Shown here piece after piece: positions 30,826 through 37,566 of a DNA stretch of 43,334 nt. Position 1 is the stretch's first letter. Every line of letters begins with the position of its first letter. Under the pieces are notes generated by a model that saw only the letters and a list, made by a program, of their open reading frames with translations, made no database searches and was not told the origin of the DNA. Source of the DNA: a virus; IMG/VR virus record IMGVR_UViG_3300030109_001018, positions 1 through 43,334 of that record; one strand, 5' to 3'. Both the position numbers and the translations under genes were made by a program.

Positions 30826-30862
30826 CTACACTCTAAACGCATACATAACGTAGTTATTATAT

Positions 30863-30874
30863 TAGGGGGGGGAT
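30863..30874 (-). repeat. G-run motif, right arm of the 12-bp inverted repeat
   Basis: TAGGGGGGGGAT pairs with 30171-30182 as an exact inverted copy. Locally GGGGA can also pair with TCCCC about 6 nt downstream to form a small hairpin after the first early gene. No T-run follows, so it is not a standard terminator. Confidence 0.45.
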
Positions 30875-31000
30875 TAAGTTCCCCTCTCTAAAAAATTTAT
30901 ATCGTGTCTATAAAAAATATAAACACAAAAAGAAACTCAGGTTATATAGTGTACCATGCACGCCCACACATAATAATAATAGAATAATAAATCGTAATAA

Positions 31001-31029
31001 TTAATTAGCTGAAAAAACACCACTATGAT
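31001..31029 (+). promoter_or_regulatory. Promoter-like repeat, copy 1
   Basis: TTAATT (31001-31006), exactly 17 nt, then TATGAT (31024-31029). The -10-like box differs from consensus by one base, while the -35-like box is weak. The whole 29-nt block is repeated with a single difference at 31289-31317, again upstream of a small early gene. This favours a functional promoter or activator site. Confidence 0.55.
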
Positions 31030-31288: not shown

Positions 31289-31317
31289 TTAATTAGCTGA
31301 AAAAACACTACTATGAT
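31289..31317 (+). promoter_or_regulatory. Promoter-like repeat, copy 2
   Basis: TTAATT (31289-31294), 17 nt, TATGAT (31312-31317). It differs from copy 1 by one base in the spacer. It lies about 90 nt before the gene at 31403, with a hairpin in the leader. Two conserved copies 288 nt apart argue for selection on the sequence. Confidence 0.55.
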
Positions 31318-31341
31318 TTTGAAATAGTAGCTTTGGGGTAG

Positions 31342-31402: not shown

Positions 31403-31900
31403 ATGGGTAAGAAATACAATACAAGTGGTAAGCCTTATCTTGGTATGAGAGGTATGGACTTCTCAAATCCGAGAGCAGTAGATAACTACCAAAGGTTTCC
31501 CAAGTCATGTAAGTTCTGCCAATCCAACACAAGAGCTAGAGATTACATATGTTATCAATGCAAACGTGATGGACTTGACAACATGAATGAGAAAGCAGAA
31601 CAGTTAGCCAATGAGAAGGGTTATACATTCACAAGTATGAGTGGTCGTATGATAGATACTGATGCAATGTTAGAACGTTTTCATAAGGGTTGGATAGAAC
31701 TAGGTGATGGTTCTATGCTAGAAGTTACACAATCTGCAAGGGATATATATAACTCACAAGAGTTAAAAGAACGTAAGCGTAAGCAGTATATCCTTAGAGA
31801 GTTAATGAATGCCAAGCATTGTGTAAGAAAAAATGGTTGTAAGTTCGTACCGTTTACAGGAAGCGAGTGTAAATGTTACGGAAGTGAGGAGGAACTATGA
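31403..31900 (+). CDS. 165-aa protein with zinc-ribbon motifs
   Basis: The start region is basic. A zinc-ribbon-like CKFC...CYQC (near residues 36-53) follows, then a helical centre. A second Cys/His cluster forms the C-terminus (HCVRKNGCKFVPF...ECKC). The ATG has an AGGAG ribosome site. Its stop overlaps the next ATG as ATGA. The two clusters suggest nucleic-acid binding or an adaptor role. Endonuclease catalytic residues (HNH) are not evident. Confidence 0.75.
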   Translation: MGKKYNTSGKPYLGMRGMDFSNPRAVDNYQRFPKSCKFCQSNTRARDYICYQCKRDGLDNMNEKAEQLANEKGYTFTSMSGRMIDTDAMLERFHKGWIELGDGSMLEVTQSARDIYNSQELKERKRKQYILRELMNAKHCVRKNGCKFVPFTGSECKCYGSEEEL

Positions 31901-32028
31901 GCGATAGTGAACTCTCATGTATGTGTCGTGAAAGACACGGAGAGAGTATTTGCAGTACTTGTCTTGACAACGTTATAGACAGGAGATTTGCAAGCGAACG
32001 CAGGGAACACAATCACACTTACGGATAA
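31897..32028 (+). CDS. 43-aa zinc-knuckle protein
   Basis: The 43 residues include C-M-C near the start, a His, then CSTC (19-22), followed by a basic helix and a His-rich end (REHNHTYG). It overlaps the upstream gene as ATGA, with a strong GAGGAGGA ribosome site. It resembles the 37-aa product at 32308 (MS-E, C-x-C, then ICS), so the two look like relatives on either side of the structured RNA region. Confidence 0.7.
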   Translation: MSDSELSCMCRERHGESICSTCLDNVIDRRFASERREHNHTYG

Positions 32029-32034
32029 TGAACA

Positions 32035-32294
32035 GGTGCTACACTCTAACAAGCATAACAAATTTCGTAGCACCATTCATTACATATAAGATTAAACAAA
32101 CACGCCTAGTGCATACTCTCAGCTAGGTTGTAACAAAAGCTACCTATAGCCTAACGAGATACAAATTGCCTCACTAGTGATTATGTATCACAGCCCTTTG
32201 TTGTTAGGTGTAGGTAGCTTGTAGCACATAGAGTAAGAGAGTTCCGGCCTCTAAGCTAGCAAGGAATAGGACGACTATGTGTTACAAGCTATCT
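32035..32294 (+). ncRNA. Multi-stem structured region, possible cis-regulatory RNA
   Basis: This 279-nt gap in a packed operon can fold extensively. Visible stems: (a) GGTGCTAC 32035-32042 with GTAGCACC 32067-32074, 8 bp. (b) AAGCTACCTA 32137-32146 with TAGGTAGCTT 32211-32220, 10 bp, continued by CCTAAC 32150-32155 with GTTAGG 32203-32208 and by GATACA 32158-32163 with TGTATC 32184-32189, around TCACTAGTGA. (c) 32212-32231 with 32275-32294, 20 pairs including two G-U. Stems b and c compete for 32212-32220, and stem c ends 6 nt before the GGAG of the next gene. This suggests a switch or an ncRNA. No known class recognised. Confidence 0.6.
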
Positions 32295-32307
32295 ATAAAG
32301 GAGAGAG

Positions 32308-32421
32308 ATGAGTGAAATACAATGCCGTTGTAAAGGTAATGTAATCTGTAGTAACCATTGGACTACAGAACATACAAGAATATATCAATTGCAACAGCGT
32401 ATACATAAAGGAGAAAGATGA
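32308..32421 (+). CDS. 37-aa zinc-knuckle protein
   Basis: It encodes MSEIQCRCKGNVICSNHW plus a basic helix rich in Gln and Arg. C-x-C and C-x(3)-H... could hold one zinc ion. GGAG precedes the ATG, and the stop overlaps the next ATG as ATGA. It is related in pattern to the 43-aa product at 31897. It is the gene immediately controlled by the upstream RNA structure if that is a cis element. Confidence 0.65.
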   Translation: MSEIQCRCKGNVICSNHWTTEHTRIYQLQQRIHKGER

Positions 32422-34923: not shown

Positions 34924-35628
34924 ATGGATAACTGTTGGGAATTAGCCGAACAAGTTATTGGAAACAGTGATAGAGTATTATTGTATGGCGTGCCGGGAAC
35001 AGGTAAATCATATCAAGCATCTCTACACAATCTAAAAGAGGAACAAGAAGTAGTAACTACTACCCTTACTGAGGATGGTAGTGCTATGGAATTGAGAGGT
35101 CATTTCATACCGAATGATAAAGGAAGTATGGATTGGCTACATGGTACAGCAATATCTGCATGGTTACAAGGTGCTAGGTTTGTCATTAACGAGATAGACC
35201 ACGCATCTAGTGATGTGCTTACATTCCTGTATGGAATACTAGATGACAAAGAGTTTGCAGGTATGACATTACCTAATAAGAAACAAACATTTGTCAAGCC
35301 AAGTGATGAGTTCAACGTTGTTGCAACTATGAATGGCACACCCGAAACACTACCCGAAGCACTAGCAGATAGGTTTCCTGTCAAGATAAACATTGACAAG
35401 ATACACCCATCTGCTTTGAAACTGATACCTGAACAGTATCGTGATGCTTGTGAAAGCATGTCAATCATAGAGGATAGTGCTAGGCGTACAAGTATTCGTT
35501 CATGGGCAGAGTTCTCTAGGTTACAAGAGTTCATGACAGAGGAGAACAGTGCAAAGGTTGTATTCCAAGACAAGTATCAAGATATACTTGACACAATAGA
35601 ACTTACGAAAGCACAAGATGACAAGTGA
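34924..35628 (+). CDS. MoxR-type AAA+ ATPase (CobS-like)
   Basis: This 234-aa protein is a compact AAA+ ATPase of the MoxR/CobS group. Walker A is GVPGTGKS (22-29), Walker B is VINEID (87-92), sensor 1 is VVATMNG (132-138), and an Arg finger lies in ALADRF (R150). Such ATPases act with a VWA-domain partner as metal-chelatase subunits or chaperones. The partner is the next gene, overlapping by 11 nt. The length is normal for the minimal core with a short lid. It starts in the third copy of the ACAGAAAGCGAGG element. The substrate is unknown. Cobalt chelation is not implied, because no CobN is present. Confidence 0.88.
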   Translation: MDNCWELAEQVIGNSDRVLLYGVPGTGKSYQASLHNLKEEQEVVTTTLTEDGSAMELRGHFIPNDKGSMDWLHGTAISAWLQGARFVINEIDHASSDVLTFLYGILDDKEFAGMTLPNKKQTFVKPSDEFNVVATMNGTPETLPEALADRFPVKINIDKIHPSALKLIPEQYRDACESMSIIEDSARRTSIRSWAEFSRLQEFMTEENSAKVVFQDKYQDILDTIELTKAQDDK

Positions 35629-37483
35629 AGGTATGTTATATCCTGAGATACTTGACCTAAAAGAATACAGGGTATCACTAGGTAAAACTGCGTCTATAGA
35701 CAGACAGAAAAGAGAAGCTGTGTCTATAGACAATACCTTTTGTACGTGTAGCAGGACAATTGATGACCAATTGCTAAGGGAAATCAATCATGTTCTATCC
35801 AAAATACAAGAAGATTATGATTTTGATAACAATTACTACACAAGGAACATTAAGAAAAATCATAATCATGCACGTAACATTAGAAAAGCTGTTATGTATA
35901 AGGAAATGTTTGACTTACCTGTCATGCAAGGAACTAAAGGCATTGACAAGGAAATGTTAGAAAGAGCTTATACATCTCATAGATACTATCGGGCAAGTTG
36001 GAACAAGAACAACAAAGAACGATTGAAAACACACAAGAAATCTAATGCTAAACGTAAAGCAGAAGGTAGATATCAATATGCTTATGACAGTACAGGGTTC
36101 AACTCAAGAGAGTTTAGAGATGAAGCATTGTTTTGTGATGACATCTGTATACAACAACTAACTTCATGGTTGTTGCAAGAAGATGTGCCACAACAACAGA
36201 TGGGACAACTCTTGTCTTTGGGTACCTTAGGGGACGTAACTATCTTGCAATCATTTCTTAGGTGCATTGACAGAGCATTGTATACGTTATATGATGGTGA
36301 ACTTACATCTGATAATACAGTTGAAAGTAACTACAGGTATATCAAAAAACTGTTTGATAAAAATCCTAAGAGTAGATGGACACCCATACAAGCAAAGCAA
36401 TATGCAAACTTGATGTTGAAAGATGAAGTTGATATAAGTCTACTCTGCTTCAACAATCCTATGTACATATATGACAATGTAATAAGTTTATTACAGAGTT
36501 TTGGTGGTATGACAGTAGAAGAATTGGAGAGAAGATTAGATAACATAAGAAGCGTATTGGATTTAGTGTATACATACGTACGCAATACAGTTCCTCAACA
36601 AGCTGTTGGTATGCAAACATTAACTAAATACAGAAAAGAAGTTAAGCATTTAGCTATGTTGTATCAAGCCATGTGTACAGGTAGTTCTAAAATAGTTGCA
36701 CGTAGAGTAACTCCTAAGTCTGTTGCTAATGACAAAAGCAATAACTTTGAGTTAAAACATTACACGCAAGAGAAAAGTACAGCAGACAATTTACAATCAC
36801 AAGTAGATTACATGATGAAACAAGGTGGTTTACCTAGTAAGACTAACAATAGAAAGATTAGGTGGGCTAACACAGTATTCATTAAAGGTAAATTAGTCAA
36901 GAACTTGCAGAGTACATTGAAAGCAAGAAGGGATAGACCTAGTGAAGTAGGTGCAGTACCTAAGTATATAAACAGATGGGCTACTGACAAATACATATGG
37001 GCTAGTAAGCGTAAAGCCACTAGAGGTGGAACAATAGCTATAGACTGTAGTGGTAGTATGTCGTTTAGTAGTGAGGATATATACGAAGTTATAAAATCAT
37101 TACCTGCTAGTAAGATAGTAGGTTATGCAGGTAGGAGTACATACGAGAGTGATTATTCGGAACTACCCGAAGGTGTCATAGAAACATTCGCTGAAGACCA
37201 ACGAATGATTGGTGATTACTATGAAACATTCATAAAGAAAAACGGATATGGACAAAATTATGTAGATGTACCTGCAATTATGTGGCTGTCAAGACAACCT
37301 AAACCAAGAATGTTAGTAACTGACATGGAGGTAGTTGCACTTGATGCAACACGAAAAGGTAGTCATGTGTACACAGAGGAACTTATTGAAATGTGTGAGC
37401 AACTTTGTATTAAACATGACATCATTGTCATAGCAGATGTAGATGAAGCAATTGAATATGCTAAACACATAAGCAACAGATAG
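35618..37483 (+). CDS. VWA-domain protein, partner of the AAA+ ATPase
   Basis: This is a 621-aa protein. The C-terminal about 150 residues form a von Willebrand factor A domain. The metal site (MIDAS) is DCSGS at 476-480 (D-x-S-x-S) with a second Asp in LVTDMEV (D569). The N-terminal 450 residues are mainly helical and basic (RLKTHKKSNAKRKAEG), with no named domain. MoxR/VWA gene pairs (RavA-ViaA, CobS-CobT) are known from cells, where the VWA protein selects substrates. The ATG at 35618 is inside the ATPase gene, so coupling is expected. Metal-dependent remodelling of a host or phage complex is a reasonable inference. Confidence 0.85.
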   Translation: MTSEGMLYPEILDLKEYRVSLGKTASIDRQKREAVSIDNTFCTCSRTIDDQLLREINHVLSKIQEDYDFDNNYYTRNIKKNHNHARNIRKAVMYKEMFDLPVMQGTKGIDKEMLERAYTSHRYYRASWNKNNKERLKTHKKSNAKRKAEGRYQYAYDSTGFNSREFRDEALFCDDICIQQLTSWLLQEDVPQQQMGQLLSLGTLGDVTILQSFLRCIDRALYTLYDGELTSDNTVESNYRYIKKLFDKNPKSRWTPIQAKQYANLMLKDEVDISLLCFNNPMYIYDNVISLLQSFGGMTVEELERRLDNIRSVLDLVYTYVRNTVPQQAVGMQTLTKYRKEVKHLAMLYQAMCTGSSKIVARRVTPKSVANDKSNNFELKHYTQEKSTADNLQSQVDYMMKQGGLPSKTNNRKIRWANTVFIKGKLVKNLQSTLKARRDRPSEVGAVPKYINRWATDKYIWASKRKATRGGTIAIDCSGSMSFSSEDIYEVIKSLPASKIVGYAGRSTYESDYSELPEGVIETFAEDQRMIGDYYETFIKKNGYGQNYVDVPAIMWLSRQPKPRMLVTDMEVVALDATRKGSHVYTEELIEMCEQLCIKHDIIVIADVDEAIEYAKHISNR

Positions 37484-37524: not shown

Positions 37525-37526
37525 TA

Positions 37527-37566
37527 AAGGTGTGGTATCGTGCGAGCGATACTGCACCTTTTTTTT
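37527..37566 (+). terminator. Rho-independent terminator
   Basis: AAGGTG-TG-GTATCG (37527-37540) pairs with CGATAC-TG-CACCTT (37547-37560), forming 12 Watson-Crick pairs and two G-T pairs around a 6-nt loop, then eight T residues. This is the strongest intrinsic terminator in the window and closes the first early transcript. Confidence 0.92.

Follow-up and report, generated by a model that had tools for sequence, protein, structure and literature searches.

The window (the whole stretch of 43,334 nucleotides that was analysed) came from a marine-type phage of 43 kb, uncultured, whose capsid protein is of the SU10 type. For the capsid, the exonuclease and the CobS-like ATPase, the closest relatives in culture were mostly phages of actinobacteria, and the host is likely an actinobacterium. 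A non-coding gap of 279 nt (32029-32307) extended from the stop of a 43-aa ORF to the ATG at 32308, within an operon of small overlapping genes. Both the gap and the overlapping-gene operon had been described in a first-pass annotation and were borne out, the flanking genes overlapping through ATGA (31897/31900 and 32418). The gap held a chain of hairpins, downstream of which no ORF of the window matched a PHROG family; the CobS-like ATPase followed further on.

Some other elements of the region were recorded. The CobS-like AAA ATPase was followed by a 621-aa protein (34924-37483), the two forming a CobS/CobT-like pair that resembled those of actinobacteriophages. On the 3' side of the 621-aa gene, a perfect hairpin with a tetraloop and a T-run (AAGGTGTGGTATCGT/ACGATACTGCACCTT; 37526-37561) was highly conserved in relatives and is likely a terminator. 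Near-identical copies of TTAATTAGCTGAAAAAACACYACTATGAT at 31001-31029 and 31290-31318, upstream of two small genes and conserved in relatives, resemble an early promoter of a phage (TTAATT, 17 nt, TATGAT).

The gap contained, in this order, HP1, HP2, an R-linker-F hairpin and an F-module-R cassette, the last two sharing the F arm. The features were:

31897..32028, + strand: 43-aa ORF preceding the array, a conserved neighbour by tblastn synteny
32026..32082, + strand: HP1, leader hairpin of 8 bp plus an outer 7 bp, with the conserved 24-nt loop ACTCTAACAAGCATAACAAATTTC (fold; relatives)
32104..32128, + strand: HP2, second leader hairpin, CCTAG..CTAGG, with loop TGCATACTCTCAG (fold; relatives)
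32137..32220, + strand: R-linker-F hairpin (P frame), with R arm 32137-32146, nested inner stems, CAGCCCTTTGTTGT and F arm 32211-32220 (covariance model R1; fold)
32209..32297, + strand: F-module-R cassette, with a clamp of 21-23 pairs, 32209-32231/32275-32297 (fold; relatives; stem family A7, which covaries)
32211..32220, + strand: shared F arm segment, partner of both the upstream and the downstream R arm (pair probabilities)
32232..32274, + strand: interior module AGTAAGAGAGTTCCGGCCTCTAAGCTAGCAAGGAATAGGACGA (module family 7 of the interior clustering)
32308..32418, + strand: 37-aa ORF following the array; in relatives another gene or none stands there

The hairpins of the gap were real and far beyond chance. 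The minimum free energy of 32020-32310 was -85 kcal/mol (z = -5.2; 0 of 200 dinucleotide shuffles as low), and the hairpin at 32209-32297 was the strongest of the 43-kb window (score 21.5 vs. a maximum of 17.5 in 40 whole-window dinucleotide shuffles). The R-linker-F hairpin had a free energy of -33.8 kcal/mol, and the best match in the window to covariance model R1, built from 23 linker-hairpin examples, lay at 32138-32219 (19.3 bits, E = 0.017). The 8-bp, 10+6+6-bp and 20-pair stems of the earlier description all appeared on folding. The last stem, which had been placed 6 nt before the GGAG, did adjoin the Shine-Dalgarno (SD) sequence, but ended at 32295-32297, 2-5 nt before the GGAG at 32300.

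Both leader hairpins varied in sequence among relatives (designated by L numbers). In an alignment of seven relatives, the outer stem of HP1 was TAATGAA/TTCATTA in the window, ATAGTGG/CCACTAT in L002 and TGATGG/CCATCA in L021, L022, L026 and L033; the changes were compensatory and the loop was kept within this close clade. The stem of HP2 covaried as well (CTGAG/CTCAG in L002, CGACTAG/CTAGTCG in L021, CGGCTAG/TTAGCCG in L014), and its loop AGTGCAACTCTC was conserved across relatives. A hairpin resembling HP1, CTACACTCTAAACGCATACATAACGTAG, also occurred just 3' of a 122-aa gene (approximately 30826-30880 in the window) and was followed by a G-run/C-run hairpin; this second copy of the motif was present in L009 too.

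Syntenic relatives were retrieved via neighbouring proteins, without use of the RNA. In the same early gene cluster they carried arrays in which two kinds of long RNA hairpin alternated, both using the same two complementary arms, F (GTAGGTAGCT...; consensus GTAGGTAGCTTGTAGCACATA) and R (...AGCTATCTAT; consensus TGTGTGTTACAAGCTATCTAT). Phages of the close clade had from one to several more long hairpins after HP1 and HP2, different in each phage. Canonical cassettes were present in 24 of 29 relatives chosen by their exonuclease (exo) and having at least 6 kb upstream of it, and in these 24 they lay on the strand of exo, at a distance of 1.7-6 kb upstream of it. A scan of IMG/VR with the R-arm pattern returned at least 120 stretches; because the loci obtained in this way are biased towards the R arm, stem statistics refer to the exo-chosen plus close-clade set unless stated. 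Arrays occupied several different gaps of the same gene cluster, and about half of them ended 10-40 nt ahead of a start with an SD sequence. The array was followed by a gene of 37 aa in the window, by a different one of 96 aa in L002, L004, L021 and L026, and by none in L022. Strong hairpins of the cassette kind occurred at a single place in the window and, in each relative, in a single early region. The comparison identifies the chain in the window as one copy of a widespread type of array, not catalogued before, in which conserved stems enclose interchangeable RNA modules, and this anatomy of a modular cassette array is regarded as virtually certain.

Other long hairpins were seen in phages further away. 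In the distant relatives L025 (1744-2100) and L034 (5570-5960), long hairpins also stood in chains but had arms of different sequence, and HP1 and HP2 were unrecognisable; some hairpins of distant relatives held known modules (CAGTAACTC..ATGAGCCAA in L034). A second class of long hairpins, with the common loop motif CCCTTTCTGT.TACGT, occurred in L090, L097, L103, L077, L080, L136 and L186, and its loop is possibly related to the CCCTGTT loop of the linker hairpin.

The F-module-R clamp measured 19-28 bp in 172 of 174 cassettes, most often 22-23 bp. Across 33 distinct arm pairs, 98.1% of the cells were paired and 11 of 21 pairs had changed on both sides; cells with double-sided changes numbered 78 vs. 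18.7 in shuffles, and controls with slid arms collapsed. The R-linker-F hairpin, which sits between cassettes, had an invariant CCCTGT and a conserved CCCTGTT loop, and all six pairs of its inner stem had changed on both sides. Model R1 matched most other arrays, many of them outside the training set; over all 79 matches 16 of 17 pairs had changed on both sides, in an alignment that was fitted by the model and leans towards it. Covariation was seen in every stem class. The outcome that the first-pass annotation had named as speaking against a structured RNA, sequence kept and pairing lost in homologues, was the opposite of what was found, as stems changed in sequence and kept their pairing. 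In the unbiased stems G-U cells outnumbered A-C cells (121 vs. 9), also outside four fixed wobble positions (35 vs. 5). An A-C cell corresponds to a wobble on the opposite strand, and the dominance of G-U thus indicates that selection acts on the sense-strand RNA; the substitution pattern identifies the array as an RNA structure under selection.

The earlier observation that a 10-bp and a 20-pair stem need the same bases was confirmed, both using 32211-32220, and the 10-bp pairing was 32137-32146/32211-32220. By partition function, a transcript ending at 32300 paired the shared arm upstream with a probability of 0.82 and downstream with 0.51 at its most-paired position, and a transcript ending at 32320 paired it upstream with 0.02 and downstream with 0.99. 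Given this shift upon addition of 20 nt, the two registers are nearly isoenergetic in the window. The inner clamp (32221-32231) was always paired downstream, so the competition is limited to the outer ten bases, and in the model it behaves like branch migration between adjacent hairpins. An exact 10/10 upstream partner of F was present in 83 of 126 first cassettes vs. 1.5 expected; the competing helices are therefore not peculiar to the window. The competition may have a use, or it may simply follow from the construction of arrays out of common arms.

Approximately 174 distinct cassettes held about 80 to 105 kinds of interior depending on the clustering, the higher count being inflated by a few antisense readings. 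Interiors were mostly 30-85 nt long, and the units of one array were different modules. Between L021 and L033 the flanks and the clamp were nearly identical, the arms intact and the interior different, and the interior of L033 was found again in L097. The cassette of the window was 93-94% identical over 87 nt to cassettes of L048, L124 and L171. In matching segments elsewhere, the divergent phages L048 and L124 were approximately 65-82% like the window, and its module was identical at 38 of 43 positions in L048 and at 41 of 43 in L124. An interior that stood in the F..R frame in one phage was found in the R..F frame in another, and interiors also occurred in clamps of unrelated sequence (e.g., GATGAAAGGAACGC/GCTAACTTTCATC). 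These identities indicate that a module moves as a unit from phage to phage, from one frame to the other and into clamps of unrelated sequence.

Predicted pseudoknots are supported by covariation in two module families. Module family 0 kept a hairpin and an interleaved helix, with one pair seen as A-U, G-C and U-A. The family of the L077 module kept two interleaved helices and a hairpin, each with double-sided changes, and a distant version in L048 had GGCGA/TCGCC in place of the TACCA/TGGTA of L077 (read by hand anchors). Averaged over module kinds, nested folding of the interiors was weakly better than in mononucleotide shuffles (mean z = -0.30). Strong folding as a general feature of interiors was rejected on this value, and because of the weak average, independent structure is claimed for the two families only.

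No module was matched to a known target. Module family 1 (L109, L114, L137, L167, L192), with GTAGGTTGAAYTCCTACCA and a covarying hairpin ATACGAAAGTAT/ATAATTTATTAT, resembled a tRNA T arm with a CCA-like end and is a possible tRNA mimic. A 162-nt linker between two cassettes of L153 had a canonical-looking T arm (CTTATAGGTTCAAATCCTATC) and gave no tRNA by ARAGORN; it may belong to a defective tRNA or a mimic. Two modules resembled a T arm or an anticodon arm, but among the hairpin loops of all modules, 5-bp stems closing 7-nt loops were not in excess, and mimicry of tRNA as a general rule was discarded.

No Rfam or ARAGORN match identified the array as a known RNA family or a tRNA array. None of 4227 Rfam 15 families, the CRISPR families among them, matched at the gathering threshold in the window plus 32 array loci, the best sub-threshold scores being far below, and ARAGORN found no tRNA or tmRNA gene in the window plus 60 loci. 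Cultured phages (50,697 records) and plasmids (72,556 records) gave no credible match, with only short ones at E > 0.5. An occurrence in bacteria was considered and rejected: 84,980 bacterial and archaeal species genomes gave one exact 19-mer (L229), apparently in coding sequence and lacking both an F arm and a neighbouring phage gene, which is put down to chance. No description of the array element was found in the open-access literature.

As to function, the array would be co-transcribed with the early genes as part of the early message, and the long clamps would let each module fold separately. The clamps may also be cutting sites for a double-strand-specific RNase of the RNase III type; they have the duplex length of approximately 20 bp or more of RNase III sites. 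Small RNAs freed in this way would target host factors in trans. Their most plausible role would be that of decoys or binders serving counter-defence or host takeover, as the early location and the fast turnover of modules suggest. This turnover would be the mark of an arms race, and the common arms would yield both the competing helices and the homology for exchange of cassettes by recombination. The reading of the array as a precursor, from which small RNAs that act in trans, possibly as counter-defence decoys, are cut out of the early message, is given an even chance. More tentatively, and with a probability closer to one third than to one half, the array may represent a platform of general use to phages. 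Its clamp hairpins, strung together polycistronically, would bring many different small structured RNAs into the host, each against a different defence or housekeeping protein, and the array would evolve by cassette exchange at the shared complementary arms. If so, it would be an RNA counterpart of anti-defence gene islands.

The geometry had been proposed at first to fit either a two-state cis-regulator or an ncRNA cut from the message. As a cis-regulator, the shared F arm would pair with the upstream R arm early in transcription or with the downstream R arm, altering access to the SD sequence or the stability of the following message. The mutually exclusive helices, nearly isoenergetic at 32300, are real, and the recurrence of the upstream partner in first cassettes agrees with such a role, which also predicts the frequent ending of arrays shortly before an SD-bearing start. 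However, the following gene is not conserved, and in L022 it is missing with the array still present; the array showed no constant association with one gene or pathway. A gene-specific switch is weakened by this, and a switch for the gene at 32308 is disfavoured. A switch would moreover keep its sensor, whereas modules vary freely and are replaced with both arms left intact. Masking of the SD sequence GGAGAG by the CUCUC of the HP2 loop was rejected, as the two are complementary in the window and L002 and not in L021, L022 or L033. Movement of the modules from phage to phage and from stem to stem also speaks against a switch for this gene. Cis-regulation is accordingly considered unlikely, and the excised ncRNA, still a prediction, fits better.

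Alternatively, the clamps could set the early cistrons apart, as RNase III sites or as blocks to exonucleases, and so serve processing or stability of the mRNA, as in T7, with the interiors as tolerated filler. The narrow range of clamp length whatever the sequence, the replaceable clamp sequences, the position between early genes and the weak average folding of interiors would all suit this role; yet filler would drift, and the interiors are kept as units across divergent phages and different clamps, with pseudoknots maintained by compensatory change in two families. A pure processing device is judged quite improbable. Conserved complementary ends around variable interiors, and cassettes mobile between phages, also recall selfish palindromic repeats acting as DNA (REP/BIME-, MITE-like or integron-like attachment sites) and spread by a recombinase or transposase. 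Against that origin, the arrays are restricted to one early gene cluster per genome and to one strand relative to exo, and the rest of the window was free of dispersed copies; the DNA palindrome is interrupted, strand-specifically, by conserved G-U wobbles, and unrelated holders accept the same modules. Such repeats are a very improbable explanation.

If trans-acting RNAs are indeed excised, a group of uncultured phages that is common and probably infects actinobacteria has dozens of small structured RNAs, unrelated to one another, in holders that can be swapped. These would make up a large pool, so far uncatalogued, of RNA effectors and of possible decoys of host defence systems. Even without a function, the arrays are a natural experiment in RNA modularity, in which clamp, linker and module evolve separately; the three are separately testable, and clamps and modules can be predicted by pattern.

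The early region of T7 has long RNase III-site hairpins between early genes of a phage operon, and the array is alike in placing long hairpins between early genes; to our knowledge, T7 sites have neither modular cassettes swapped between phages nor an alternating second hairpin frame that shares the arms. Like CRISPR and integron cassette arrays, the array combines conserved repeats with variable, exchangeable inserts. Unlike in those arrays, its repeats are complementary arms closing an RNA hairpin and its inserts recur as families and may be pseudoknots; unlike in integrons, no cassette ORFs were seen and no integrase was noticed. MicroRNA clusters of eukaryotic viruses have several hairpins with stems of about 20 bp on one transcript, and there the stem carries the information. 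The likeness is an analogy only: in the array, of a bacterial virus, the interiors are large and structured, and a conserved clamp around a variable module is the reverse arrangement. Phage decoy RNAs have precedents in pseudo-ToxI of phage PhiTE (PMC3475682) and in the RNA anti-CRISPR Racr, a small phage-encoded structured RNA (PMC10651486). With pseudo-ToxI and the RNA of type III toxin-antitoxin systems (PMC3475682), the array shares phage-borne, repeated, non-coding units that are pseudoknotted (as found in two module families), that evolve by expansion and recombination and that act, presumably in the case of the array, as decoys. In pseudo-ToxI, every unit repeats a single antitoxin of 36 nt, which the toxin itself cuts (PMC3475682), whereas in the array each unit is different, is held in a clamp of 19-28 bp and alternates with a linker hairpin, and tandem near-identical repeats of about 36 nt were not found. 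Like Racr, the small structured RNAs of the array are phage-encoded and would have host proteins as their targets. No CRISPR-like repeat was noticed in the array, whereas each Racr mimics a CRISPR repeat as a solitary unit (PMC10651486), and the array brings together many unrelated modules.
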